From Chryseobacterium gleum (GTDB taxonomy: Bacteria; Bacteroidota; Bacteroidia; Flavobacteriales; Schleiferiaceae), in assembly GCA_945883565.1 (NCBI GenBank), contig CAMCXO010000001.1, positions 1 through 64,000 on the forward strand: DNA of 64,000 bases, given 5' to 3'. How positions within the stretch are numbered: position 1 is the first letter of the stretch; each line of letters opens with the position of its first letter. Made by a program: the position numbers and the translations under genes. Shown one piece after another: positions 8,593-45,741 of the stretch. The notes beneath the pieces are model-generated. The model ran no database searches. It was not told the origin of the DNA and saw only the letters and a list, made by a program, of their open reading frames with translations.

Positions 8593-10592
8593 AGCAACTA
8601 CTTTCAATAATCCTATTGTTTGGGCTGGGCTTTTTAACGGCCCAATCTCAAGGAAAGTTTCAATATCACAAAGTAGCCAAAGGCGAAACCCTTTATGGCA
8701 TTGCGGCTCAATATCAAATAAGCGTTGACGAGATTAGAAGTTTAAATCCCGATACCAAACTCAAACTCAAAGAGGGTACGGTTTTAATACTACCGGCGGT
8801 TAATAAATTGAAGTCAAAGCCGGTTTACCAAAAGAGTCATACCGTAGCGGCCAGCGAAACTTGGTACGGCATCAGCAAATTGTATGGGGTTTCAGTCGAA
8901 ACCCTGCAAAATGCAAATCCCAATTTGGGAGGTGCTCCGGTTTTGCGTGAGGGTTTGGTACTCAATATTCCGGAAAACAACATTACTACAAGCCCTAAAG
9001 AACCGGGAAGCGATTCTACCTACCAAGGTATGGTATTTCATAAGGTGGCAAGTGGCGAAACGCTTTATGGCTTGTCTAAAAAATACAACATCAGCATGTT
9101 GCAGCTTCAAGAGTGGAACCCAACGGTTTTGGAATCGGGATTGAAGTTCGGCCAATGGTTGGTGGTAAAAGCAGGGGGGGCTAAAGAAGTGATGGCCAGC
9201 GACGAAGCATCTTTAGTAAAAGAAGCTTCAACTGATTTGGCTAAAGACGTGGCTGCTAAACCTTTAGAGCCAACCGCCAATGAACCCATTCAGGAAGAAA
9301 CCTACCGATTATACAAACTGGGGCAGGGTGAAGACTTATCGACCATTGCCATGGCCTTTGGCACCACTTCCGATGATTTGGTGCAATTAAACCCCGAATT
9401 GCGCGATGGATTGGTGGCAGGGCGATACATAATTGTGCCTATTAATAAAGGGGTTCAAACCGAAGAAAACAAGCAAGAAACCCAGAAAGAAACCCTGTCT
9501 AAGCCGCGAGATACAGGGGCTTTTAAAGCCTTGGTAATTTTGCCTTTTACCGATTTTGTAGACGATACCACCGAAGTTTATGAATTTGGAAATTCTTCGG
9601 CCGAAAAAATGCGTTTAAGGGCGGCAATGTTTTATTCGGGTTTGCAATTAGCATACGATAGCCTTACATCTTCGGGGCAAAAAATTCAATTGGCGGTTTA
9701 TGACAGCGAAAACCGCGAAAGCAAACTGCGCGAAATACTCCAGGACACCTTTTCAATGCAAGCCCAATATTCAATTGGGCCTTTATATGCCAACAATGTG
9801 CTTTCGTTATCTAGGCAAGCGGCCCATCTGCCAATGAGAATTATTTCTCCCTTAAGTGGGCAATTGGCCATAAAAGATGAAAAAAATATTGTGGATTTGG
9901 TTTCGAGCGATGAAGCCTCAGACCAAAAGGCGCTTGAATACATCGAAAAGCATTTCGACGGGGCTCAGGTTCTTTTGATTTATGGTGCTCAGGATGTTGA
10001 AATGCAAAAGCGCATGGCAGATATCAGCGCTCAGTTAAAAAAGCGCTCTGGCGGATGGGTGAAAGAAATAAAACTGGATCCCGCTCAGCCCGGATTAACC
10101 AAAGCCAAAATAGAAGAGGCCTTTGAAGGCCATGAAACGGGTACTAGACTTATATTAAGTGCCCTTAAAAGCACCAAAACCATAACCGGATTGGCCAAGA
10201 GCTTAGACGCTATGAGCGTAAAGCCTGCTTGGATCTCATTGTATGAATGGCCACATTTGCAACACGTAGAAGGCAAAATAATGGAGGCTTTGAAATTAGC
10301 CGGTCCAAAAAAATATTTTGCCCCCGAAAACGATAAGGCCGTAGAGCGTTTTCAAGAAGCTTATAAGGCCCGCTTTGGTCGCGAACCAGAACTGTATGCT
10401 TTTCAAGGTTACGACGCTCTGATGTTTGCGGTTTTATACCATCAAGCACTCCAAACGGGATTAAATGATACACTGGTTTATAAAGGACTTCAAACCGACA
10501 TAAAAGTGTCTTTGGATCTCAAAAAAAGTGTTCAAAACCTCGACATAAGGTGGCAGGAAATGGGCGATAAGCGCTGGAAAAAAGTAGATTAA
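8583..10592 (+). CDS. Four-LysM protein fused to a type I periplasmic-binding domain
   Basis: A 669-residue exported protein. A signal peptide (about 1-23) is followed by four LysM modules (about 27-71, 86-130, 152-195, 241-286; each with a GETLYGI-like or GEDLSTI core). The region from about 315 to the end resembles the type I periplasmic-binding fold of amino-acid ABC receptors (FKALVILPF.., [11 protein letters not shown]). LysM binds peptidoglycan, so the ligand-binding domain would be tethered to the wall. No ABC permease is nearby, so a sensory or structural role is as likely as uptake. The start overlaps guaA by ten bases. A second ATG two codons in (8589) is equally possible. Confidence 0.85.
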
Positions 10593-10677
10593 CCGCATTT
10601 TTTTGCGTTTATCACCAAAACATCCACAATTTGATAAGAGCAAGTATCTTTAGGCACTAACCTTTTAAAATTAAGCA

Positions 10678-11196
10678 ATGAATCAAGAAACAAAAACCTA
10701 CGGTTTGTATTTAGGGGTAGCCTCTGTTTTGGTTTCGGCCATAATGTATGCTTTGGGCATGTTCGAATTGGGTGGAAATAACATAGCCCTTTCCGTACTG
10801 TCTCTCGTTTTGATGATTGCCGCCTTTATTTTGGCGGGAAATGCTTTAAAAAAACGCCAAGATGGCTATATGACATTTGGTGAAGCCTTTAAAACCTATT
10901 TGGGTATTGGGGTAATAGCTTCTATTATCAGCACAGCATGGATGGCCCTGTTTGTTTTTGTATTAGAGCCCGATTATCAGCAAAACATGCGCGATATTCA
11001 ATACGAGAAAATGATTGAAGCCAATCCTGACATGCCCGAAGATCAAATTGAAATGGCTTTGAGCATGGCCGAAAAATTTTCATCTCCAGTTATGATTCTG
11101 GTGTTTGGCTTAGTAGGTGCTATTATTTTTTATTTAATAATTGGCGCCATCATGGCCGCAATTACCAAGAAAAATCCACCCATTTTTAACAACTAA
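10678..11196 (+). CDS. DUF4199 membrane protein
   Basis: A 172-residue protein with four hydrophobic segments (about 10-30, 36-56, 75-98, 140-162) and a charged loop between the third and fourth. The pattern and the KKRQDGYMTFGEAFK stretch fit the DUF4199 family, common in Bacteroidota and of unknown function. It lies 12 bases before a glycosyltransferase gene, so it may be the first gene of a three-gene envelope-glycan unit. A near-consensus -7 box (TATCTTTA, 10645-10652) lies upstream. Confidence 0.75.
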   Translation: MNQETKTYGLYLGVASVLVSAIMYALGMFELGGNNIALSVLSLVLMIAAFILAGNALKKRQDGYMTFGEAFKTYLGIGVIASIISTAWMALFVFVLEPDYQQNMRDIQYEKMIEANPDMPEDQIEMALSMAEKFSSPVMILVFGLVGAIIFYLIIGAIMAAITKKNPPIFNN

Positions 11197-11208
11197 TTCT
11201 TAAAAGTC

Positions 11209-12171
11209 TTGCTCGACCTTTCATTGGTCATTCCGCTTTATAACGAGGCCGAATCGCTTCCTGAACTGCACTCCTGGATTGCACGGGTGTGCAGAGCAGA
11301 AGGATGGCGTTACGAGATTGTTTTTATAGACGATGGTTCAACCGATAGCTCATGGTCTGTTATTTTGCAATTAGCCGAAAAAGATCCCAATACCAAGGGA
11401 ATACGCTTTAGACGTAATCATGGAAAATCGGCCGCTTTAAACGTTGGATTTAAAGCCAGTAGCGGCAAAGTGGTGATCACCATGGATGCCGATTTGCAAG
11501 ACAGTCCCGATGAAATCCCTGATTTGGTAAAACGAATTAGCGATGAGGGCTTTCACCTTGTTTCGGGCTGGAAGAAAAAACGTTACGACCCCATCACCAA
11601 AACCATTCCTACCAAATTATTTAACTGGGCAGCCAGACGTGTTTCAGGCCTAAGTCTGCACGATTTTAATTGCGGTTTGAAAGCCTATTCAGGCGAAGTG
11701 GTTCACAATATTGAAGTAGAGGGTGAAATGCATCGTTACATCCCCATTCTGGCCAAAAATGCCGGGTATACCAGAATTGGCGAAAAAGTGGTTCAACACC
11801 GTGCCCGAAAGTATGGGAGTACCAAGTTTGGATGGGAACGTTTCGTGAATGGCTATCTCGATTTAATGACCTTGTCTTTTGTTTCTAAATTTAGCAAAAG
11901 ACCCATGCATTTTTTTGGGCTTTATGGCAGCATGATGTTCTTATTTGGGTTTGTAGCCGCCATTTATATTGGTGCCGCAAAGCTTTACCGATTGCATCAT
12001 GGGCTTAAAACCATCCTCATTACAAACGACCCTTGGTTTTACATTGCGCTAACGTGTATGATCCTAGGCAGTTTATTGTTCGTTACCGGATTTTTAGCCG
12101 AACTAATCGTTCGAACAGCCTACCGCAAAGAAGCGTATACGGTGAGCGAAAAATGCAACTTTAATGGCTGA
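11209..12171 (+). CDS. Family 2 glycosyltransferase, DPM1/GtrB-like
   Basis: A 320-residue enzyme with a GT-A domain at the N-terminus (LVIPLYNEAESL, DDGSTDSS at 41-48, MDADLQD with the metal-binding DAD at 93-95). Two membrane segments follow at about 232-255 and 275-300. This is the arrangement of polyprenyl-phosphate sugar transferases (dolichyl-phosphate mannose synthase-like, GtrB/ArnC-like), which load a sugar on undecaprenyl phosphate at the cytoplasmic face. The start is a TTG; no ATG lies in frame between the upstream stop and the conserved LVIPLYN. It overlaps the next glycosyltransferase by eight bases. Confidence 0.88.
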   Translation: MLDLSLVIPLYNEAESLPELHSWIARVCRAEGWRYEIVFIDDGSTDSSWSVILQLAEKDPNTKGIRFRRNHGKSAALNVGFKASSGKVVITMDADLQDSPDEIPDLVKRISDEGFHLVSGWKKKRYDPITKTIPTKLFNWAARRVSGLSLHDFNCGLKAYSGEVVHNIEVEGEMHRYIPILAKNAGYTRIGEKVVQHRARKYGSTKFGWERFVNGYLDLMTLSFVSKFSKRPMHFFGLYGSMMFLFGFVAAIYIGAAKLYRLHHGLKTILITNDPWFYIALTCMILGSLLFVTGFLAELIVRTAYRKEAYTVSEKCNFNG

Positions 12172-13147
12172 ATCGGGGCTTAAGTTTAGCCTTATTTCGC
12201 CAACCTTTTTGAGAGAAGAAGAGGTGAGCGAATTTCTGGATAGTTTAACGGGTTTGAATTACCCTGCTTTTGAGGTGATATTGGGCGATGGAAGCCCTGG
12301 AAATGAATTGAAGGGCCTTTTTGAAACCTATCAAAACCACTTGCCCCTTAGAGTTTATCATCGGCCATACCTTCCGGTTAGCGATGCCCGTAACCGGGCG
12401 GCTGAATGGTCTACCGGCGAATACCTTATTTTTCTTGACAGCGATTGTCTGATTCCTTCTGAATATTTAAACCAAATCGAAGCCCATTTAAGTCAAAATC
12501 CACTTGATTTGTTTGGCGGCCCCGACAAAGCAGATGAGAATTTTACACCACTTCAAAAGGCGATTTCATTTAGTATGACCCATTTTATTACCACCGGAGG
12601 TATTAGAGGGGGCAAGAAAACCTTAACGTCTTACCAACCCAGAGGATTCAATATGGGCATAAAGCGAAAGGTGTTTTTTGAAGTGAAAGGGTATGATGAA
12701 CAGCTTAAATGTGGTGAAGATGTAGATTTAAGCATTCGAATACAGAAGGCAGGTTATAAGTCGGGATTTATTCCGGAAGCAGCGGTATTTCACAAAAGGC
12801 GAACGAGTTTAAAGAAGTACTTTAAACAAGTATATCGGTTTGGGGCAGCACGTATCGATTTAGCAATGCGCCATCAAAACCAAATGCGGGCCGCACATGT
12901 ATTCCCATTTGCCTTTGCATTGGGTTTGATTTTTTCTATTTTAATGCTTCCCGTCACCAGCTGGTTTTTTCTAATGTATGCTATGTATTTTTTGGCGGTA
13001 GGGGTTTTTGCCCGGATAGAAACAAAATCAACAGGAATAGCTTTCTTAAGTATGCTAAGTACCGCTACTATGTTTTTGGGTTATGCCTACGGCTTCGCAC
13101 GAAATGCCATTTCGCATTTGGTTTTTAAGAAAGCTTTGAAGCTTTAG
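12164..13147 (+). CDS. Family 2 glycosyltransferase with C-terminal membrane segments
   Basis: A 327-residue protein. The N-terminal GT-A fold shows SPTFLREEEV, a GDGSPGN loop and the LDSDCLIP metal-binding motif. Two hydrophobic segments lie near residues 245-295, and a short basic tail follows. The acceptor and donor are unknown. It overlaps the preceding GT2 gene by eight bases, so the pair is translationally coupled and likely acts on the same envelope glycan. Confidence 0.85.
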   Translation: MAESGLKFSLISPTFLREEEVSEFLDSLTGLNYPAFEVILGDGSPGNELKGLFETYQNHLPLRVYHRPYLPVSDARNRAAEWSTGEYLIFLDSDCLIPSEYLNQIEAHLSQNPLDLFGGPDKADENFTPLQKAISFSMTHFITTGGIRGGKKTLTSYQPRGFNMGIKRKVFFEVKGYDEQLKCGEDVDLSIRIQKAGYKSGFIPEAAVFHKRRTSLKKYFKQVYRFGAARIDLAMRHQNQMRAAHVFPFAFALGLIFSILMLPVTSWFFLMYAMYFLAVGVFARIETKSTGIAFLSMLSTATMFLGYAYGFARNAISHLVFKKALKL

Positions 13148-13351
13148 CTAAAAATAAAAAGCCTAACCAAAGCAGCAAACCAACGAAAATTTGCGCAACT
13201 TTTAACAAGGGTCAGGTATAATCGGTTCGTGGCATATTAAACTAAATAGTGTTTTCGGTATTAACGATTGTTTTAGAAAGACTTTGTTGTTACCAGTTAG
13301 ATGAATGTTAGTAGACTTAACAATTAGATATTGGCAAATTCGTTGAGAAAC

Positions 13352-13382
13352 TTGCCAAGTGAAGATTGTGTGCTTACCTTTG
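13352..13382 (+). promoter_or_regulatory. Promoter of the YceI lipoprotein gene
   Basis: TTG at 13352-13354, 20 bases, then TACCTTTG at 13375-13382. This is a full match to the Bacteroidota -33/-7 arrangement. It lies 30 bases before the ATG at 13413 and downstream of the longer in-frame start at 13359, which it therefore rules out. The rest of the 265-base gap (13148-13412) shows no gene. Confidence 0.75.
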
Positions 13383-13412
13383 TCTATGTTTAAACATCAA
13401 AACAAAACAAAC

Positions 13413-14090
13413 ATGAGAAAATGGTATAACGGGGCAGCATTTGGCGCCCTTGCAATGTTGGCAGTTGCCTGTGGTGGCAATACTGGAGAAGCGGTAGAAG
13501 CTACAGATGCTCAGGCAGTTGAAGAAGTAGCTGCAGAAGCATCTTACATGGTGGAAGCAGGCAGCGTATTGAAGTGGGAAGGTTTTAAAACCTACTCAGA
13601 TGGAAAACATTTTGGTACCGTTAACCTTACAGAGGGTTCTGTTACCACCAAAGGCAGCGATTTGGTTGGAGGAAAATTCACTTTCGACTTAAACAGCATC
13701 AACTCATTGGATATGAAGCCAGAAGATGAGTACCGCGCCAAATTGATTGGCCATTTAATGAGCCCCGATTTCTTTGATGTGGCCAACCATCCTACGGCTT
13801 CTTTCGAAATAACAGGGGTTGAAGCTGCTGCTGACGAAGCCGGCAACACCCATAAAATCAGTGGAAATCTAAGCATTCGCGGCATCACCAAAAACATCAG
13901 CTTTCCTGCCCATGTTATGATGCACGAGGGCATGGTGCACATCAAAGCGCCTACTTTTACCATAAACCGTACCGATTGGGGCGTTCAATATGGTTCGGCC
14001 AATGGGGTTGAAGTAACCGATGCCATTAAAGACAAATTGATTGACAACAACATCAAGTTTGAGTTTGATTTGAAGGCCAACAAAGCCTAA
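13413..14090 (+). CDS. YceI-family lipoprotein
   Basis: A 225-residue protein with a lipoprotein signal ending LAVAC (lipidated C20), a short acidic linker, and a YceI-like lipocalin-fold domain (about 45-225). Typical family patterns are present (FKTYSDGKHFGTVNL, FDVANHPTASFEITG, SIRGITKNISFPA). YceI proteins bind polyisoprenoid or amphiphilic ligands in the periplasm; the ligand here is unknown. The start is chosen from the lipoprotein signal and the promoter just upstream. It is a single-gene unit closed by a strong terminator at 14111. Confidence 0.9.
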   Translation: MRKWYNGAAFGALAMLAVACGGNTGEAVEATDAQAVEEVAAEASYMVEAGSVLKWEGFKTYSDGKHFGTVNLTEGSVTTKGSDLVGGKFTFDLNSINSLDMKPEDEYRAKLIGHLMSPDFFDVANHPTASFEITGVEAAADEAGNTHKISGNLSIRGITKNISFPAHVMMHEGMVHIKAPTFTINRTDWGVQYGSANGVEVTDAIKDKLIDNNIKFEFDLKANKA

Positions 14091-14110
14091 TCAAATTTTT
14101 TACAAAAAGA

Positions 14111-14140
14111 AACCCGCACGCCATTTGAGGTGTGCGGGTT
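14111..14140. terminator. Bidirectional rho-independent terminator
   Basis: The stem AACCCGCACGCC (14111-14122) pairs with GGTGTGCGGGTT (14129-14140) around a six-base loop. It is followed by a T-rich run on the plus strand and preceded by an A-rich run. It lies between the convergent YceI and thioredoxin genes and can serve both. Confidence 0.88.
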
Positions 14141-14183
14141 TTGTTTTTTCTCTAATATTCACTTCTATAGAGCAGAGGTGCCT

Positions 14184-14963
14184 TTAACCAAACAGCAACA
14201 TACTAAAACGCCTTTGGTACTTTTTGGTGATTGGGTGTTGATGTCCAAAAACATCGAACATAGCAATAAGCACTTTTCTGGCTGATTCGCGCTCTTGACT
14301 TCCAGGCATTAATTTGGCTAAAAGAAGTTCTACAAGGGTTTCCCAATTCGAAGTTTTCCAATGGGTTCTTTCTTCTTCAAATTCTACAGGTAACGGTTTT
14401 GCCCAAATTTGAGAAGCTTGGACATATATTTCTTGATTAAGACCCAATTTTGGGTACATATCCGAAAATGCATCCGGCTTAAACAAAAACCGCATCTTCA
14501 TCAAAGCTTCATTGGCATCATCGAGGTGCTGCCAATTTGCTGCTTTTTCTTCAAATTCATGAAAAGCCGTTGAATCGAGAGGCCAAATGTTACGCGATCT
14601 AAAGTCTAGCCAAGCACTTTTTTCAGGAGATGGTAAATTTTCATTCAACCATTTTAAAATAGCTTGGGCTGGCAAGGCACCTGTAAATTCGGCTATAACA
14701 TTCCCTTTAAAAAACATTTTAACCGCAGGAATTCCCTGAATTTTATACACTTGCATCAAATGCGGATGGGCTTCGGTATCAATTTTCACCAACTCCCAAC
14801 GGCCGTTGGCTTCATCGGCTAATTTTTCAATAACGGGACCTAACACCCGACAAGGGCCGCACCATGCCGCCCAAAAATCGACCACTACCGGAATGGTTTG
14901 GCTGCGTTCAAGCACCAGTGCTTCGAAGTTCATTTGAAATTTTTTCGCGAAATTGGCCTGCAT
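14184..14963 (-). CDS. Thioredoxin with C-terminal TPR-like extension (CnoX/YbbN-like)
   Basis: A 259-residue protein: a thioredoxin domain with the active site WCGPC (C35, C38) and the cis-proline region GIPAVKMF, then about 150 helical residues. Length and arrangement resemble co-chaperedoxins of the YbbN/CnoX type, in which a TPR-like tail binds chaperonin clients. Orthology is inferred from layout. A second start at residue 11 (14933) is close to where the family normally begins and may be the true one. The 5' end overlaps a divergent open frame, but the small membrane protein there starts later, at 15004. Confidence 0.85.
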   Translation of the reverse strand: MQANFAKKFQMNFEALVLERSQTIPVVVDFWAAWCGPCRVLGPVIEKLADEANGRWELVKIDTEAHPHLMQVYKIQGIPAVKMFFKGNVIAEFTGALPAQAILKWLNENLPSPEKSAWLDFRSRNIWPLDSTAFHEFEEKAANWQHLDDANEALMKMRFLFKPDAFSDMYPKLGLNQEIYVQASQIWAKPLPVEFEEERTHWKTSNWETLVELLLAKLMPGSQERESARKVLIAMFDVFGHQHPITKKYQRRFSMLLFG

Positions 14964-15003
14964 TCTCGTGAAGTTATGTGATGAGGGTCATAAAACAAAT
15001 TAT

Positions 15004-15207
15004 ATGTCATTCTTGGTTTATTTGGTGTTGAGCTTTTTAATCGGCTATTGGAACTACAACCGAGGTTGGTCTTTTATGAATGCCTTTTTGGTGTCCTTAA
15101 TTTTTACACCGGTCATAGGCTTGTTGTTTACGTTTATTAGAGGACATGGTCCTATGTACGACGAACAAAACGCCCGCCGTTTTCCGGATAATTCAGAAGG
15201 ATTTTAG
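15004..15207 (+). CDS. Small two-span membrane protein
   Basis: A 67-residue protein, MSFLVYLVLSFLIGYWNYNR at the start, with two hydrophobic segments separated by a short loop and a charged C-terminus. An ATG at 14953 in the same frame would add 17 unhydrophobic residues and run into the divergent thioredoxin gene, so 15004 is preferred. I do not recognise a family. Confidence 0.6.
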   Translation: MSFLVYLVLSFLIGYWNYNRGWSFMNAFLVSLIFTPVIGLLFTFIRGHGPMYDEQNARRFPDNSEGF

Positions 15208-15251
15208 CTTTACAACTAGGTGGGCAAAGCATAGCCGCGTATTTTAGCCAC

Positions 15252-16265
15252 GTGAATTACCCCCAAATTATTCAGTCGATTATTGACCGAAAATTTAGCC
15301 CGGTTTATCTTTTACATGGAGAGGAGGACTTTTTCATAGATGAAATCATGAATAAGTTAGAAGCCTACAGCATGCCTGAATCTGAACGCGATTTCAATTT
15401 GAGCATTGTTTATGGAAAAGACGCCGACGGTAAACGCATTGCAGGTGAGGCCAGACGTTATCCTATGATGGGGGCAGAAAAAGTTTTTATATTGGTTCGT
15501 GAGGCCCAGGCACTTAGTAAAATAGATGAGCTCTTAGAACAATATGTGGCTAACCCAAACCCCACCTCTGTATTGGCTTTGGCGTTTAAGAAGAAGAAAA
15601 TAGACAAACGAACCAAATTGTTTCAGGCAGCCGATAAAAAAGGAGTGGTTTTTTCATCCGACAAATTGCGCGACCATTTGCTCACCGAATGGGCGGTAAG
15701 CCATGCCCAAGGTATGGGACTGCGGTTAGACAGTAAGGCAGCCTATATGATTACTGAGCTCATAGGTAACGATTTATCGCAAATGGATTCGCAATTGAAG
15801 AAATTGCAAATGGTATTGCCAAAAGGCGAAGCCATTAGCGATAAAATGGTGGCCGAGCACATTGGCCTTAGCAAAGAGTATAATCCCTTCGAATTGGTAA
15901 AGGCCTTAATGCGTAAAGATCGTTTTAAAGTTCAACAGATCATTCAATATCAGAAGTATCATTCAAAAGATTTGCCCTTGCCAATGGTTACCGCCATATT
16001 GTACGGGCAATTTGAAAAGCTCCTGTTGCTGCATTATGGCCCCGATAAAAAACCGGATTATTTCGAAAAGCAATTTGGAATAAAAGCCTATACTTTAAAA
16101 GAACTTCAGTCTTACAAAACCGTTTTCGATGCCCGTGCTTGTTCTCGCATTTTATTGCTATGCAAAGAGTACGATGGTAAATCGAAAGGTTTTGGTACCG
16201 GTAAAACAGATAGTACAGAACTCTTTAGAGAGTTTGTTTGGAAAATACAATTGCTCGCACGTTAA
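15252..16265 (+). CDS. holA: DNA polymerase III subunit delta
   Basis: This 337-residue protein matches the clamp-loader delta subunit. It starts with the short N-terminal motif YLLHGEEDFFIDE, followed by the Rossmann-like AAA+ region without Walker A, and the helical collar domain to the end. Delta opens the beta sliding clamp as part of the pentameric loader. The start is a GTG at 15252, which lies exactly four bases after TATTTTAG (15240-15247), a one-mismatch -7 box. The gene ends 19 bases before the TonB receptor start. Confidence 0.92.
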   Translation: MNYPQIIQSIIDRKFSPVYLLHGEEDFFIDEIMNKLEAYSMPESERDFNLSIVYGKDADGKRIAGEARRYPMMGAEKVFILVREAQALSKIDELLEQYVANPNPTSVLALAFKKKKIDKRTKLFQAADKKGVVFSSDKLRDHLLTEWAVSHAQGMGLRLDSKAAYMITELIGNDLSQMDSQLKKLQMVLPKGEAISDKMVAEHIGLSKEYNPFELVKALMRKDRFKVQQIIQYQKYHSKDLPLPMVTAILYGQFEKLLLLHYGPDKKPDYFEKQFGIKAYTLKELQSYKTVFDARACSRILLLCKEYDGKSKGFGTGKTDSTELFREFVWKIQLLAR

Positions 16266-16284
16266 CAGCCCCTTACCACACTCT

Positions 16285-18624
16285 ATGAAACACTTCTTTT
16301 TGCCCATTCTTTTGCTTGCCCTTTTAATAAGTTTCAGCCCCTTGCAAGCTCAAAATCAGAAAGGCAAAATACGTGGCTTTGTTCTTGAAAAAGGAAGCGA
16401 AAGCCCCATTCCGTTTGCAACCATTGCGCTACTTGACCCAAACAGTCCGAGTGGAAGGTCTACCAAAGTGGGAACTACCACCAATAACGACGGTTTTTTC
16501 ATCTTGAACGATGTACCGGTTGGAGACCAAACCATTGAAGTGGTGTTTTTGGGAATGGAAACCCAAAAGCTTCAGGTTAATGTAAAAGAAGGCCGAATCG
16601 CAAACGTTAAAGTATTTATGGCCGAATCGAATACCATTTTGCAAGATGTGGTGGTGAAAGGTGAACGTCAAGAACAACAAAAACAGGTGCTTACTTCTGT
16701 TGTAAGCTTGTCGCCTAAGCGAATTGAGCAATTTTCGGTTGGAGGCGATGCCGACCTTATACGCGCTATTCAGGTACTACCAGGTGTAGTAACTACCGGT
16801 GACCAAGGCGGACAACTATACATTAGAGGAGGCGCACCTATTCAGAATCTGGTGCTTTTAGACAATATGATTATTTACAACCCATTTCACAGCATTGGAT
16901 TCTTTAGCGTTTTCGACACCGACATATTACAAAGTGCGGATGTATTTACAGGCGGTTTTAATGCCGAATATGGTGGAAGAACTTCTTCGGTTATGGACGT
17001 TAAAACCCGTCAGGGCAATCAAAAGCGTTTTTCGGGCAAAGCATCCGCTAGCACTTACAGCGCCAAACTGTTATTGGAAGGCCCACTTTTCAAAGCCAAA
17101 AACGAAGAGCGCGCAGGTACTTCATTCATCATTTCCGGAAAAACCTCTTACCTCGATCAAACATCTTCTATTTTTTATCCTTATGTAGAAACCGAATTTG
17201 GGGGCTTACCTTTTAGCTTCACTGATTTATATGGCAAAGTAAGCAACACCAGCAGCAATGGATCACAAATCAATGCCTTTGGGTTTTTGTTTGAAGACGC
17301 AGTAAAATTTGGTACCGCCGATAATATTTCCTGGAACAGTCAGGGTTTGGGATTTGATTTCAGGGCCATTCCTATTTCTTCTTCAATGGTATTAAAAGGC
17401 AATATGGCATACAGCAACTACAGCATAGTAAGCAACCAAAGCGATGGATTGCCAAGAGCCAGCGACATCAATGGGTTTAATGGAGGTTTGGATTTCACCT
17501 ATTTTTTAAGAAGAAACGATGAATTACGGTATGGAATTCAAGCCATAGGCTATCAAACAAACTTTAGCTATACCAACGAATTAGACCGCACCATTTCGCA
17601 AACTGAAAACACCACCGAACTTGCTGGTTACTTCAGATACAAGGTCGACATTACCCGTTTTTTAATAGAGCCCGGAATACACGTTCATTATTATGGTTCT
17701 TTGGGGCAGGTTTCGTTTGAACCTCGAATGGGATTTAAATGGCTGATAAACGAAAAATTTCGTCTAAAAGCCTCTGGCGGATGGTACTCCCAAAATTTGG
17801 TGGCTGCCAACAGTGACCGCGATGTGGTGAACCTGTTTTACGGTTTTCTGTCTGGCCCCGATGATATTCCAAGCGAATTTTCCGACAACCGCCTTCAGCT
17901 GGCTCGACATGCCATTTTTGGATTTGAATACCAAATAGGCGAATACATTGACCTCAATGTTGAGGCTTATGTAAAAGACTTTAATCAAATTACCAACATA
18001 AACAGAAATAAACTTTACAACAGCGACGACTTCACAAAACCGGAAATTTTGAGGAAAGATTTCATAGTAGAATCAGGTTTGGCACAAGGAATAGATATTT
18101 TAGTAAAAACAGAATATAAGAACTATTATTTGTGGGCGGCCTACTCGTTGAGCACTGTTACCCGAAATGATGGATTAAGAGAGTACTATCCCCATTTCGA
18201 CAGACGCCACAATTTAAACTTAGTGGCCTCCTATTTCTTGGGAAAAGACCGTAAATGGGAATTTAATGCGCGCTATAATTTTGGATCAAGTTTTCCTTTT
18301 ACCCCAACCCGGGCATTTGTTCCTTCCCAGCCGTTCACATTGCCCGATGGTACTCCATCAACAGAATACGACTATACCGTTGAAAATGGGCAAGTAAAAG
18401 TACTGTATGGCGATTTAAATTCACGACGATTGCCCAATTACCACCGTTTCGACATCAGCGCCAAACGTACCTTCGACTTTAAGCGCAACCAAAAACTCGA
18501 AATCAATGCCGGTGCTACCAACATCTTGAACCGTGCCAATATTTTCTATTTCGACCGCCTCAATTTTAGAAGGGTCGACCAATTGCCCATCATGCCAACC
18601 ATTGGGTTTGCCTACTTGTGGTAG
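16285..18624 (+). CDS. TonB-dependent receptor with carboxypeptidase-like N-terminal domain
   Basis: A 779-residue outer-membrane receptor: signal peptide (MKHFFLPILLLALLISF.., about 1-23), a carboxypeptidase-D regulatory-like beta-sandwich (about 30-110), plug (about 130-235, LPGVVTTGDQGGQLYIRGG), then the barrel. No SusD partner follows, so it is not a classic SusCD pair, and the substrate is unknown. I place the start at 16285, where the signal peptide begins. The longer frame to 16129 overlaps holA and has no export signal at its N-terminus. Confidence 0.9.
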   Translation: MKHFFLPILLLALLISFSPLQAQNQKGKIRGFVLEKGSESPIPFATIALLDPNSPSGRSTKVGTTTNNDGFFILNDVPVGDQTIEVVFLGMETQKLQVNVKEGRIANVKVFMAESNTILQDVVVKGERQEQQKQVLTSVVSLSPKRIEQFSVGGDADLIRAIQVLPGVVTTGDQGGQLYIRGGAPIQNLVLLDNMIIYNPFHSIGFFSVFDTDILQSADVFTGGFNAEYGGRTSSVMDVKTRQGNQKRFSGKASASTYSAKLLLEGPLFKAKNEERAGTSFIISGKTSYLDQTSSIFYPYVETEFGGLPFSFTDLYGKVSNTSSNGSQINAFGFLFEDAVKFGTADNISWNSQGLGFDFRAIPISSSMVLKGNMAYSNYSIVSNQSDGLPRASDINGFNGGLDFTYFLRRNDELRYGIQAIGYQTNFSYTNELDRTISQTENTTELAGYFRYKVDITRFLIEPGIHVHYYGSLGQVSFEPRMGFKWLINEKFRLKASGGWYSQNLVAANSDRDVVNLFYGFLSGPDDIPSEFSDNRLQLARHAIFGFEYQIGEYIDLNVEAYVKDFNQITNINRNKLYNSDDFTKPEILRKDFIVESGLAQGIDILVKTEYKNYYLWAAYSLSTVTRNDGLREYYPHFDRRHNLNLVASYFLGKDRKWEFNARYNFGSSFPFTPTRAFVPSQPFTLPDGTPSTEYDYTVENGQVKVLYGDLNSRRLPNYHRFDISAKRTFDFKRNQKLEINAGATNILNRANIFYFDRLNFRRVDQLPIMPTIGFAYLW

Positions 18625-40109: not shown

Positions 40110-41132
40110 GTGTCTTCATTTGTTAATCATACCATTTTCGATCAATACGTACCCGACTGGTTAATGCGGTCTCGCAATGTTTTTTGCACAATTGTAGATG
40201 AAAACGGAAATTATATCTATGCAAATCAATATTTTAAAGATGTTTTTAGTTGTAATTGGCCAACTTGGATTAAAAACGGTTATACAAATTCGGTTCATCC
40301 TGACGATTTAGATGTGCTTAACTTTGCAGTAAGTAGGTTGTTGGCGTTTGGAGGTATTGAAAAGTTTGAAATTCGAAAACCCACTTCTTTATCAGGCGAT
40401 TACATACATACTCAATGGGAGATATCACAAATAAAGAACGAATTTGGAAAAGTTTTCGCGTTTTTAAATATTGGCTTCGACTTAACTAACGAAATACTGT
40501 ATTTGAATTCTCTACGAGAAACAGAGTTTAAATTACAGGCAATTTTTAATTCCACAAACCATCCAACCATTCTTTTAAATAAAGACTTTACCATTCAATA
40601 CATAAACAAAGCCGCCGAGGAATTGGGTTGGCAAATGGTAAATGCCAAACCTCTAATAAACGATAACATTCTAAGTTACCTTAGTTTGTCGTTTATTGAT
40701 TTTTTTAAAGAACTAATCGATAAGGCTTGGGATGGACTTTGTACAGAAACGGAGTATTTTATTGAAGACAAATGGTGGAGTTTGAAGGTGTTTTCAGTAT
40801 TGACAGATAGCAAAAAACGAATAGGCGTAGCTTTGCAAGTAATTGATATTACCATTGATAAAGAAAAAGAAAACAGAATCTTAGAGCAAAATCAACGCCT
40901 TAGACAAATTGCTTGGCAACAATCGCATGAAGTTAGAGCCCCTTTGTCTAATATGCTTGGCTTGTTGCATTTAATGCAATTAAAAGGCAAAGAAACAAAT
41001 GGCGAGGAATTAGATTTTTTAATTCAATCTTTAATTGGCGAAGGAAAGAAGCTTGATAAAGTCATACATGAAATTGTAAAAAATTCGAATCATGTATTCG
41101 ATCGCATAAACGACAAGGAAGTGCAGCAATAG
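40110..41132 (+). CDS. PAS-PAS-DHp protein lacking a kinase ATPase domain
   Basis: A 340-residue soluble protein: two PAS domains (about 20-125 and 135-255), a coiled-coil linker, and a histidine phosphoacceptor helix (QQSHEVRAPLSNMLGLL). It ends about 50 residues later with no N, G1 or G2 box. It is therefore a sensor with a dimerisation/phosphotransfer domain but no ATPase; it could be phosphorylated by another kinase. The start is a GTG at 40110. The first PAS lacks the LOV-type GRNCRFLQ motif, so a flavin photoreceptor is not indicated. The photorepair operon begins 120 bases downstream. Confidence 0.85.
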   Translation: MSSFVNHTIFDQYVPDWLMRSRNVFCTIVDENGNYIYANQYFKDVFSCNWPTWIKNGYTNSVHPDDLDVLNFAVSRLLAFGGIEKFEIRKPTSLSGDYIHTQWEISQIKNEFGKVFAFLNIGFDLTNEILYLNSLRETEFKLQAIFNSTNHPTILLNKDFTIQYINKAAEELGWQMVNAKPLINDNILSYLSLSFIDFFKELIDKAWDGLCTETEYFIEDKWWSLKVFSVLTDSKKRIGVALQVIDITIDKEKENRILEQNQRLRQIAWQQSHEVRAPLSNMLGLLHLMQLKGKETNGEELDFLIQSLIGEGKKLDKVIHEIVKNSNHVFDRINDKEVQQ

Positions 41133-41252
41133 ATTTAAATTGTTTAAATTCTTTCGATTTTTTAATCAAGTAAGCAAAAGTATATTCAGTTTAACTTTTT
41201 TTAGAACAATTCATTGTTTCGTCTGTCTTATCTATTAAACCAAAATCTTGTT

Positions 41253-41708
41253 ATGTACGTTTTTGAAAGAACTCAGGAAATACCTGTATCTGTAGAACAA
41301 GCCTGGGATTTTTTCTCTTCCCCAAAGAATTTAAAAGAAATAACGCCGTCTTATCTAGGATTTGACATAAAAAGCGAATTGCCCGAAAAAATGCATGAGG
41401 GTTTATTTATTATGCACATGGTTAAACCCATTTTTGGAATCCCAATGGAATGGGTTACTGAAATAACCCATATTAATAAAGGGAGATTTTTTGTAGACGA
41501 GCAGCGAAAAGGCCCCTACAGAATTTGGCACCATGAACATCATTTTGAACCCACGCCTAAAGGTGTTCGAATGTTTGACAGAGTGAGTTACGAGCTTCCC
41601 TTTGGACTTTTTGGTCAAATGGTTCACCCCTTATTAGTGAAGCCTAAGCTTGTTGAGATTTTTAATTTTCGCTTTGATAAAGTCGAGAAATTGTTTGGTA
41701 AAGTATGA
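41253..41708 (+). CDS. SRPBCC (START-like) family protein
   Basis: A 151-residue protein of the SRPBCC fold, with VFERTQEIPVSVEQAWDFFS at the N-terminus and a hydrophobic cavity pattern. It resembles the COG4276 group, which often accompanies photolyase/cryptochrome genes. The molecular role is unknown; the fold binds hydrophobic ligands. The ATG at 41253 matches the domain start, whereas an in-frame ATG at 41214 adds 13 residues without similarity. Its TGA overlaps the next ATG (ATGA), starting a chain of coupled genes. Confidence 0.85.
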   Translation: MYVFERTQEIPVSVEQAWDFFSSPKNLKEITPSYLGFDIKSELPEKMHEGLFIMHMVKPIFGIPMEWVTEITHINKGRFFVDEQRKGPYRIWHHEHHFEPTPKGVRMFDRVSYELPFGLFGQMVHPLLVKPKLVEIFNFRFDKVEKLFGKV

Positions 41709-42301
41709 ATAGGGTGGTTTTTGGAATTGATTTTGGCAGTAGGTTATCAGGAAACACCGTTTTGTGTATTTTCAATTTTGGTAGAATACACTTTATGCAG
41801 GTTGATAAAAATGTTGATGCCGATGTTTTTCTTCTAAATGCGGCCAAGCATTTTAAACCTGAATTGGTCTTTATAGATGCTCCTTTAAGTCTGCCCGGTG
41901 TTTATTCAGGTTTACACGATCATAATGACTACCATTTTAGGTGCGCGGATAAAGACTTAAAAGCTATGTCACCAATGTTTTTGGGAGGACTAACAGCACG
42001 AGCCATAGAACTAAAAGATATTTTATTGGCACAGGGTATTGCAGTAAAAGAAACTTTTCCAAGAATAATGGCTAAAAGAATGGGACTAGAATCACTTGGT
42101 TATAAGGGAGGTAAATTGGCGCTTATAACCTGTAAAAAAGAGATTCTATCTAAAATGAACCCTGCAATCGCTATTGACTGGGAAGAAATCAACAGTTGGC
42201 ATGCTTTAGATGCCCTTTTGTCTTTGATGTCGGCTTTAAACTATGTTAGTGGAACCCATAAAGTATATGGCTGTGAAGAAGAGGGCCAAATTTTTGTGTG
42301 A
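41705..42301 (+). CDS. DUF429 protein (predicted RNase H-like nuclease)
   Basis: A 198-residue protein with the DUF429 pattern: an acidic first strand (VFGIDFGS), a second acidic strand (VFIDAPLSLP), and a C-terminal WHALDALLS helix. The family is predicted to have an RNase H-like fold and its biochemical role is not established. It starts within the stop of the SRPBCC gene and its own stop overlaps the GTG of the photolyase gene, so it belongs to the photorepair operon. Confidence 0.82.
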   Translation: MNRVVFGIDFGSRLSGNTVLCIFNFGRIHFMQVDKNVDADVFLLNAAKHFKPELVFIDAPLSLPGVYSGLHDHNDYHFRCADKDLKAMSPMFLGGLTARAIELKDILLAQGIAVKETFPRIMAKRMGLESLGYKGGKLALITCKKEILSKMNPAIAIDWEEINSWHALDALLSLMSALNYVSGTHKVYGCEEEGQIFV

Positions 42302-43839
42302 ACAATATAAGTAAAATCAGGCTTGTTCTTGGAGACCAATTAAACCAGAATCATTCTTGGTTTAAAAGAACAGATCCCCATATTTTATATGTCATGATGG
42401 AAGTGAGAACTGAAACAGACTATGTAGTTCATCACATCCAAAAAATTCTGGGCATTTTTTCTAATATGAGGGCTTTCGCGGATTCTTTAAGAAATCACGG
42501 GCACTTGGTACACTATATTCGAATTGGCGACGCAGAAAATAAACAAGATTTCATAAATAATTTAATTCCATTATTGCAAAAGTTTCAGGTAAAATATTTT
42601 GAATATTTAGAACCAGATGAATTTAGATTAAAGTCATATTTTGAAAATGGACTTAAGCAGTTTAACATGCTAGTAAAGATCTACTCTACTGAGCATTTTT
42701 ATACAAATACTTCTGAACTAAGCTCTTTTTTTCAGGATAAAAAAACATATCTCATGGAATCTTTTTATAGATACATGAGGAAAAAACACAATGTGTTAAT
42801 GTCTGGAAATCATCCAATAGGAGGTAAGTGGAACTTTGATTTGGAAAACAGAAAGAAATTACCAGACAAGCAGTTTATTCCTCAGGCCAAACTTTTTAAT
42901 CACAACGTTAAAACATTATATAATGAAATTATTTCTTCCCAAGTAAAATTTTTAGGTTATATCAATGAGTCTGATTTTATTTGGCCGATTGGTCGTAAAG
43001 AAGCTTTAGAGCTATTAGAGCATTTCTGTATCTATCTTCTTCCTTTTTTTGGAACTTTTCAAGATGCTATATCGTCTAGAGATTGGAGTTTGTTTCATAG
43101 TAGAATTTCATTCGCACTAAACCTGAAAATTATAAGTCCGATTGAAGTAGTTGAGATGGTGGAAAAGTATTATGTAGCTAATCCGAGTTTAATAGCCATT
43201 CAGCAAGCAGAGGGTTTCATAAGACAGATTCTGGGATGGAGAGAATATATAAGAGGTGTTTATTGGGCTGAAATGCCCGTCTATTCAGAAATGAATTATT
43301 TTCAGAACAAAAGAAAATTGCCTGATTTTTATTGGACAGGAAACACCAGAATGTCTTGTATGAAAGCGGCCATTAAACAAACACTGGATCATGCTTATGC
43401 TCATCATATTCAGCGTTTAATGGTAACTGGCAATTTCGCTTTGTTGTCAGGAATTGAACCTAAACAGGTTGATTTCTGGTATTTAGGTGTATACATAGAT
43501 GCATTTGAATGGGTAGAATTACCAAATACTAGGGGAATGAGCCAGTTCGCCGATGGAGGATTATTGGCAACAAAACCCTACGTAAGTTCTGCGAATTATC
43601 TTAATAAGATGGGCGACCATTGTAGCAGTTGTTATTATAATCACAGATTGAGAGTCGGTGAGAAAGCTTGTCCTTTTAACAGTTTGTACTGGAATTTTTT
43701 TGACGAAAAAAGGAAATTACTAGAAAGGAATCCTCGTGTAGGTATGGTATATAGAACTTTGGATAAAATGGGTGCTCAGGACTTGAAAGAAGTTAAAGTT
43801 CAGGCCTCAAAATATCTTGAAAACCTAAGTGATATTTGA
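42298..43839 (+). CDS. Fe-S cluster (6-4) photolyase-like protein (FeS-BCP/PhrB family)
   Basis: This 513-residue protein carries the four cysteines of the bacterial (6-4) photolyase family: C354, C442, C445 and C458. Each is four positions beyond those of Agrobacterium PhrB (350, 438, 441, 454), as I recall them. The histidine pair H369-H370 matches the PhrB active-site H365-H366 by the same offset. These enzymes use FAD and a lumazine antenna to repair (6-4) photoproducts with blue light. The start is a GTG overlapping the upstream stop (GTGA). Some relatives act as sensors rather than repair enzymes. The stretch is very AT-rich (11 of 60 G+C at 42541-42600). Confidence 0.9.
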
Positions 43840-45335
43840 AACCAATTGCAAATGTTATTTGGTTCAAGCGCGATTTACGTGTAGATGACCATTTGCCTCT
43901 GTTATTAGCATTGGAACAGAACTTTCCTGTTCTGGCAGTTTTCATTTTTGAACCGTCTTGGTTAAAATCTCAAGATTACTCACATAGACATGGCAAATTT
44001 GCTTATGAGTGCTTGAAGGATCTTGAAATAAAACTTTGGGAATTAGGAATAAGATTAAATGTGATATGGGGTGAGGCTCTAGATGTTTTTAACGAATTAA
44101 GCATACAAATAGAAATTCAAAATGTTTTCAGCCACATAGAAATTGGAACTCAAAGAACTTTCAATAGAGATGTTTTATTGAAATCGCTCTTTAGAGCTAA
44201 AGGAATTTCTTGGAGAGAAATTCAGTTTAATGGAATAAAAAGAGGCGTAAAAAACAGAGAGAATTGGGATAAAGGCTGGAAAGACTACATAGATCAGCCA
44301 TTAATTAAATTAAAAAGCCAACCCATTCATGAATTGACTATTAAGTTTTCTGGTATTCCAAGTAAACTCGAGGACATTTACAATTCCACAAGATTGCACC
44401 TACAAAAAGGCGGTTATTCGGTTGCGAAAGAGCGTTTAAATGAGTTTTTAACTAAAGATATCTTGTCATACAATCGAAATATTTCAAAACCATTTGAAAG
44501 CCGACAGTCTTGTAGTCGTTTATCTCCTTACTTGGCTTGGGGGGCATTAAGTACTCGGCAAGTAATCCATTTAAGTTTAGGTCAATCCTGTCCTTCACGA
44601 AATAAGAATTTACAAAGTTTTATATCAAGATTACTTTGGCAAGCCCATTTTATGCAAAAATTCGAGTCCGAGTGTTCAATGGAGTTTCAATCCTTGAATA
44701 AGGCTTACAATAATCTAACATTTAATAGTAATTCATCTTTTATTGCAGCTTGGGAGTCTGGTGAAACTGGATATCCATTAGTAGATGCTTGCATTCGTTG
44801 TGTAAAGGAAACAGGTTATTTAAACTTTAGGATGAGGGCTTTAGTCGTAAGTTTTTTAACCCATGTTTTAGGTCAAAGTTGGCAATCTGGTGCACACTTT
44901 TTGGCCAGAAAGTTTTTGGACTACGAGCCAGGAATACATTTCCCTCAAATGCAAATGCAAGCCGGGGTTACAGGCGTAAACATTATCCGAGGTTATAACC
45001 CGGTGAAACAGTCGAAAGATCATGACCCTGAAGGTAAATTTATAAAAAAATGGGTTAAAGAGTTAGAAAGCCTACCAGCTCATTTGATTCATGAACCTCA
45101 TAAAATTGCGCCATTAGATTCTTATTGGTATGGATTTAAGCCAGGAGATAATTATCCACTACCTATAGTCGACTTTCAAATAGAAATAAAGAGAAATCTA
45201 GAAAGATTGTGGGGCCTTAGAAAAGAACAATTAACACAAAACGAAAATGAAAGAATCATACAAAAACATACCACATCAAACAGAAGTCACAATGAACGAA
45301 GTAGAATTATCTTTGGACTGGTTGAATCCCATTGA
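43836..45335 (+). CDS. Photolyase/cryptochrome family flavoprotein
   Basis: A 499-residue protein with an N-terminal antenna domain ([17 protein letters not shown]) and a C-terminal FAD domain ([51 protein letters not shown]). By eye alignment with E. coli photolyase the Trp306 and Trp382 positions of the electron chain are Y328 and Q373, while Trp359 is kept (W349); the tract QMQMQAG replaces GWQWAAS. It is thus a divergent branch of uncertain activity. The start is a TTG overlapping the upstream stop (TTGA). Its last 89 bases overlap the DUF2452 frame. Confidence 0.85.
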
Positions 45336-45741
45336 TGCGACTCAGGTAGCTAGTTCGCCAGGTTTAATTTCGTATGCACATCATGTTGGGAGTGCATTAA
45401 TAGAACCCACAAAACAGGGTGTAATTAAGAGCAAAGCCCTTAGCAGTATGGAACAACAGACCGAAATGCAATTAAATCAAATCAAAGAGCAAATCGAGTT
45501 GTTGAAGATGCAAGCGGAGAAAGTTTTGGAAAGAAAAAGAGTATCGATGTTTATTTATAGTGCAAAAATGAGTTTTGAACCATTGGTAGGCCATACTTAT
45601 TTTTTGTATGAAAGTAAAGAAAATGCATACATTTTAAGTATGATTGCGCCTGAAGATTGGCAAAAGATTCCCTTTAGGTCATTTGTTGCCAAAATAAGAC
45701 TTTTGGCAGACCATACATGGGAAATTATTGAGAAAAAATAG
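45247..45741 (+). CDS. DUF2452 protein
   Basis: A 164-residue soluble protein: a short N-terminal region ([24 protein letters not shown]), a central helix with heptad character ([20 protein letters not shown]), and a C-terminal beta-rich region ([11 protein letters not shown]). It fits DUF2452, of unknown function. The ATG at 45247 overlaps the photolyase gene by 89 bases; an in-frame ATG at 45292 would overlap by 44 and begins nearer the conserved part. The last gene of the operon. Confidence 0.8.

Follow-up and report, generated by a model that had tools for sequence, protein, structure and literature searches.

The locus analysed here is a cluster of five genes at 41253–45741 of a 64,000-nucleotide window (the whole stretch of DNA under study), which is part of a 2.86-Mb draft genome placed in Bacteroidota by the relatives found. 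According to the open reading frame calls, all five are on the plus strand, in the order SRPBCC, DUF429, Fe–S photolyase (DPRP family), a second member of the photolyase/cryptochrome family (CPF) and DUF2452. A first-pass annotation of the letters had described a co-directional, overlapping chain, and its coordinates and junctions were confirmed: ATGA joins SRPBCC to DUF429, GTGA joins DUF429 to the photolyase and TTGA joins the photolyase to the second CPF. Each Pfam call likewise exceeds its gathering cut-off (Polyketide_cyc, 32.0 versus 23.4 bits; DUF429, 25.7 versus 23; DPRP, 232 versus 22; FAD_binding_7, 204 versus 27; DUF2452, 67.5 versus 25). The chain is flanked by gaps of 120 bp upstream and 214 bp downstream (up to CysQ), therefore the candidate transcription unit consists of these five genes. 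The features are as follows.

41133–41252, plus strand: presumed promoter gap, 120 bp, holding GTTTAACTTT at 41189 (weak evidence)
41253–41708, plus strand: SRPBCC protein (PF03364), 151 amino acids, predicted small-ligand pocket protein (Pfam, alignment)
41705–42301, plus strand: DUF429 protein, 198 amino acids, predicted RuvC/YqgF-fold nuclease (Pfam, model, conserved residues)
41729–41731, 41876–41878, 42200–42202 and 42209–42211, plus strand: codons of the DUF429 site residues D9, D58, H166 and D169, respectively
42298–43839, plus strand: Fe–S bacterial (6-4) photolyase (PF04244), 513 amino acids (Pfam, alignment, residues)
43836–45335, plus strand: divergent photolyase/cryptochrome-family protein ('type A' CPF), 499 amino acids (Pfam, NCBIfam, alignment, tree)
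44628–44630, 44823–44837 and 44928–44960, plus strand: altered sites of the type-A CPF, namely R265, NFRMR and an 11-residue segment
45292–45741, plus strand: DUF2452 protein (PF10504), start uncertain (Pfam, homologue alignment)

The last overlap had been given as 89 bases, from an ATG at 45247; the other candidate starts of DUF2452 are ATG 45292 and TTG 45322. Since the start of most DUF2452 homologues coincides with the motif M[IV]NPID, which in the window is preceded by TTG 45322 or ATG 45292, the longer overlap is doubtful and is probably a start-site artefact, the true overlap with the second CPF probably being 14–44 bases. The corresponding overlap in a same-genus relative (G150) is 8 bases.

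Recurrence of the five genes

The whole set was found again in two genomes of the same genus (G149 and G150), and a short contig of a third (G151) carries the part of the cluster that it covers. All five genes are also present, rearranged, in two genomes from another family of the same order (G206 and G216), with photolyase, CPF and DUF2452 on one strand, DUF429 divergent and SRPBCC a few kilobases off; furthermore, SRPBCC–DUF429–photolyase was found in five more genomes of the same family (G161, G193, G180, G188 and G172). This recurrence indicates that the tight packing goes beyond chance.

A class-wide sample of 396 genomes yielded 41 intact DUF429 loci, one per genome; because the gene of the window went undetected when the genome was searched with the Pfam DUF429 profile, homologues were searched with the protein or with an alignment. 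An Fe–S photolyase is encoded by 36 of the 41 DUF429 genomes, against 17 expected from the photolyase frequency (164 of 396). For 21 of these 36 genomes, which represent seven families, the two genes are <2 kb apart (in 15 pairs DUF429 is upstream on the same strand, and in 6 the genes diverge; naive binomial P~3e-48, a value that ignores relatedness). Chance pairing is implausible because seven families and two orientations are involved. DUF429 lies between a CPF gene and the photolyase in families f29 and f53, with overlapping ends in some cases, and a Saprospiraceae genome carries SDR, type-A CPF, DUF429 and photolyase consecutively.

That unrelated genes became neighbours by chance, the genome being compact, would fit the dense operons of Bacteroidota and the placement of DUF2452, which is mostly elsewhere, yet the recurrence across other genera, and across families in other orders, makes it very improbable as an explanation of the cluster; it is refuted for DUF429 and SRPBCC and weakly possible for DUF2452. 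The expectation that the members would co-occur in relatives and not scatter was therefore borne out in part: DUF429 and SRPBCC adjoin photolyases in other families and orders, and the link of DUF2452 is looser.

No DUF429 match was obtained in a single-sequence scan of genome contigs, nor was DUF429 found on plasmids in a plasmid search. At L039 (G082), DUF429 is a decayed remnant interrupted by several stop codons; the DUF429–photolyase pairs at L024, L022 and L030 lie inside carotenoid clusters (lycopene cyclase, CrtI-like) or close to them. In the open-access literature (subscription papers being outside the scope, here and below), no link of DUF429 or DUF2452 to photolyases was found.

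The Fe–S photolyase and a predicted RuvC-like nuclease

By alignment and residues, the third gene is a canonical Fe–S (6-4) photolyase. Its product is homologous over the whole length to the Vibrio cholerae (6-4) photolyase 7ykn (E=7e-161), with all four Fe–S cysteines (C354, C442, C445 and C458) present and aligned, and it carries the catalytic His-His pair H369/H370 (kept in 88/92 and 92/92, respectively, of the family set). Among 92 DPRP-family (PF04244) proteins of related Bacteroidota loci, 28 (for example, L092–L099) are without any of the four Fe–S cysteines and retain the catalytic histidine.

The first-pass annotation had named nucleotide clean-up as one example of what the accessory members might do; for DUF429, this gives way to a better reading as a RuvC-like nuclease on the basis of the predicted fold and the conserved residues. 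The AF2 model (pLDDT 96.6) has an RNase H-like fold; its best Foldseek match is Thermus thermophilus RuvC (E=1.4e-4), followed by phage RuvC and YqgF. The acidic metal-site residues of the RuvC-type RNase H-like superfamily are present and are conserved across 45 DUF429 sequences, D9 in 44 and D58, H166 and D169 in all 45. The parts of Majorek 2014 (PMC3985635) covered here place DUF429 in the RNase H-like superfamily, grouped with RuvC and YqgF in one clade, and predict nuclease activity from the conserved sites; these parts contain no photolyase link. The third active-site residue of T. thermophilus RuvC is also a His (PMC3834835). DUF429 is thus predicted to be a RuvC/YqgF-fold nuclease, and not RuvC proper, to which it has no significant sequence homology.

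It is unlikely, though worth weighing, that DUF429 is no nuclease and that its RNase H-like fold serves as a nucleotide or nucleic-acid binder or as a scaffold, as YqgF/Tex-type domains can. The moderate TM scores to RuvC, the loss of D9 in one relative (G150) and the invariant R79, D82 and E116 together with a MSPMFLGG segment, none of which are RuvC features, would suit such a role; the near-invariance of the four site residues, and the activity predicted from them in the covered parts of PMC3985635, argue instead for the nuclease.

A divergent CPF clade

The second CPF had been labelled photolyase/cryptochrome. It falls below every curated NCBIfam cut-off, CRY-DASH (TIGR02765) included (176 versus 317 bits, with other CPFs of the same loci at 511–578). 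In the tree, it belongs to a single clade on a long branch (support 0.947), termed type A. A total of 92 clade members were compared with 66 CPFs that lie outside the clade in the same loci, using Escherichia coli numbering via alignment. We take E274, N341, M345 and W384 to be the established lesion contacts of photolyases, W382 the FAD-proximal Trp and N378 the residue facing FAD N5. All 92 type-A proteins have Arg at 274, Phe at 341 and Ala or Ser at 345, so that E274 or N341 is kept in none. All with data have His at 378, where Asn, Asp or Cys was looked for, and Met at 384, where neither Trp nor Tyr occurs; W382 is replaced throughout by F, L, I or M. These diagnostic states are found in 92/92 type-A proteins and in 0/66 of the others, and the window protein carries R, F, A and M at the four lesion-contact sites. 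The FAD-binding residues R342, R344 and D372 are kept. The earlier label needs changing: judging by these residues, the protein is neither a canonical photolyase nor a canonical cryptochrome, and is a member of a Bacteroidota-wide clade.

Type-A genes were found at no fewer than 587 loci, including those of Flavobacterium, Algoriphagus, Polaribacter, Saprospiraceae and others. Within 4 kb of the gene in the best 80 of these at least 587 loci, an Fe–S photolyase occurs in 35, another CPF in 36, DUF2805 in 30, flavin reductase in 17, SDR in 15, DUF2452 in 8 and SRPBCC in 7. No paper on the clade was found in the open-access literature.

A genuine DNA photolyase whose pocket is unusual, acting for instance on CPDs (cyclobutane pyrimidine dimers) or on another lesion in the phylum, would be consistent with the retained FAD-binding residues, with the adjoining photolyases and with the strict conservation of the pocket, which suits an enzyme. 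We consider this improbable, as all four lesion contacts plus W382 are replaced and as two further CPFs, besides the (6-4) enzyme, are already encoded in the genome.

DUF2452 and the SRPBCC protein

DUF2452 is encoded in 155 of the 396 class genomes, in three kinds of informative context: (i) DUF2805–DUF2452–flavin reductase–CPF–photolyase–DASH operons of Flavobacterium and Sphingobacterium-type genomes; (ii) PTPS–FolE–DUF2452 preceding a MerR+B12 gene of the LitR/CarH type, where SRPBCC is divergent; (iii) fusions of a flavin-reductase domain (Flavin_Reduct) to DUF2452, with CPF genes adjoining in two loci. Because of these contexts, a role of DUF2452 in flavin or pterin cofactors is plausible. 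The fusions are located at L187:5089–6120, L287, L288, L289 and L290. The quality of the DUF2452 model is middling (pLDDT 81.8, pTM 0.56), and Foldseek returned no match to it below E=0.17, leaving the fold unmatched. At L279–L286, DUF2452 has an N-terminal extension of 130–170 residues, without Pfam match in the three tested; in two same-genus genomes (L072 and L090), the gene of a conserved 295-residue protein without Pfam match separates DUF2452 from a Na+/H+ antiporter gene.

The SRPBCC subfamily is marked in the alignment by an invariant DEQR.GP...WHH.H, lies <5 kb from an Fe–S photolyase in ~11 class genomes and recurs in the same light islands (below). Its superfamily suggests a ligand-binding role. 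The earlier proposal that the accessory members act in light sensing or repair, for instance in cofactor handling, therefore survives in part: it is reasonable to guess that SRPBCC and DUF2452 handle cofactors, the latter being found in photolyase, flavin-reductase and pterin operons.

The light island and the upstream region

A light island lies on contig C7 of the same genome (L304, G000 C7:14000–33900, 8631–16746), with genes for LitR/CarH, ECF sigma, CrtI, CrtB and a NUDIX/Idi-type protein, and continuing with PTPS, FolE, SDR, flavin reductase and a CPF; a further CPF is encoded on contig C9. The LitR gene (C7) is not linked to the window operon (C1). In other genomes (for example, G443, L178), the parts that the window operon supplies sit in one combined island. 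The 10-mer GTTTAACTTT occurs once in the 64-kb window (41189) and again upstream of the C7 ECF sigma gene (L304:9656). An ECF-type promoter motif was rejected as a signal generally shared by the operon and its relatives, as the GAAC-N15/18-GTC site was found only in the window and in G150 among the operon relatives. Directly upstream of the operon, a PAS-PAS protein (40110–41132) has a weak terminal HisKA match and no ATPase domain; no cysteine LOV motif was seen in its translation.

The genes might adjoin only through shared light induction (LitR/CarH or ECF sigma), with DUF429, SRPBCC and DUF2452 having unrelated functions in photo-oxidative stress, for example in the handling of carotenoids or lipids. 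Such hitch-hiking would account for the carotenoid genes, SDR, TspO, FolE/PTPS and LitR in the same light islands, and for G140 and G402, where SRPBCC pairs with DUF2452 and no photolyase is alongside. However, the tie of DUF429 to photolyases is much closer than that to other island genes, the gene standing directly before or divergent from the Fe–S photolyase in several families, and we regard shared induction as a somewhat unlikely explanation, if the least unlikely of the rivals.

Discussion

The reading favoured here, at a probability of about 0.5, is that the operon forms a module for DNA repair driven by light, with a nuclease, a divergent flavoprotein and cofactor accessories. The photolyase would reverse (6-4) photoproducts, for which its sequence has everything needed. 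DUF429, as a RuvC-like metal-dependent nuclease, could cut structures that the photolyase cannot reverse or that form at UV-stalled forks, and its position directly before, or divergent from, the photolyase would bring about co-expression. By sequence, the type-A CPF keeps the FAD-binding core and has exchanged the whole substrate pocket and the FAD-proximal Trp; because of these exchanges it is most likely not a CPD photolyase, and would most likely be a photoreceptor using flavin or a photoenzyme that acts on some other lesion. SRPBCC and DUF2452 may be accessory proteins for flavin or pterin cofactors, and the operon would work beside the C7 light island.

Several observations weigh against this repair module. 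The operon and the light island are on different contigs (C1 and C7), and GTTTAACTTT, a possible shared operator, is weak evidence. DUF2452 lies mostly away from photolyases, usually on other contigs, and in roughly one third of the DUF429 loci the neighbourhood holds no gene of the photolyase family. The Foldseek TM scores of DUF429 to RuvC are 0.4–0.5, Asn replaces D9 in the same-genus homologue of G150, and the homologue profile gave no significant RuvC match against the PDB, only an HNH nuclease at E=1.

Newest among the results are the RuvC-like protein coupled to the photolyase, and the clade of divergent CPFs. More tentatively than the module itself, we propose that these are two undescribed components of light repair: a RuvC-like nuclease with a (6-4) photolyase, and a Bacteroidota-wide CPF class with a rebuilt pocket (R/F/A/H/M) and without the FAD-proximal Trp, which would be a photoreceptor or photoenzyme of a new kind. 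Photoreactivation is regarded as the work of a single enzyme; a nuclease that repeatedly accompanies the photolyase would, if true, mean that a major aquatic phylum couples direct reversal with the cutting of DNA. The type-A clade presents a large, uniform and unexplained active site, a test case for flavin photochemistry without the usual Trp relay, and DUF2452 offers a bacterial handle on the uncharacterized human C1orf50 family.

Comparison with known systems

The LitR/CarH B12 light-response regulons cluster LitR, ECF sigma, carotenoid genes, FolE/PTPS, SDR, flavin reductase and CPF, both elsewhere and on C7, whereas the window operon is without a LitR gene. The human C1orf50 belongs to the same Pfam family as the window DUF2452, which scores above the cut-off; the paper on C1orf50 names its protein DUF2452 and states that no bacterial orthologues were identified (PMC11842435), whereas the window protein is bacterial, of a family tied to photolyase, flavin-reductase and pterin genes.

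With the Fe–S bacterial (6-4) photolyases (Agrobacterium PhrB, V. cholerae 7ykn/8a1h and CryB), the window enzyme shares homology, the four cysteines and the His-His pair, and it differs in sharing an operon with the nuclease-like DUF429. With the CPF subfamilies (CPD I–III, animal (6-4)/CRY, plant CRY and CRY-DASH), type A shares the photolyase N-terminal and FAD-binding domains and the FAD-region residues, yet it has E274R, N341F, M345A/S, N378H, W382F/L/I/M and W384M. At the two recognition positions, for which M/H/Q/V and W/Y are tabulated in PMC7560933, its A/S plus M fits none of the pairs tabulated there. Finally, DUF429 resembles the RuvC/YqgF (RuvX) resolvases of RNase H-like clade D in fold and in the GIDxGS start motif, and its D...D...HxxD residues match those of T. 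thermophilus RuvC; it differs by an extra invariant region, RxxD...MSPMFLGGLTARA...E, and by being a single gene that adjoins a photolyase, not ruvAB.

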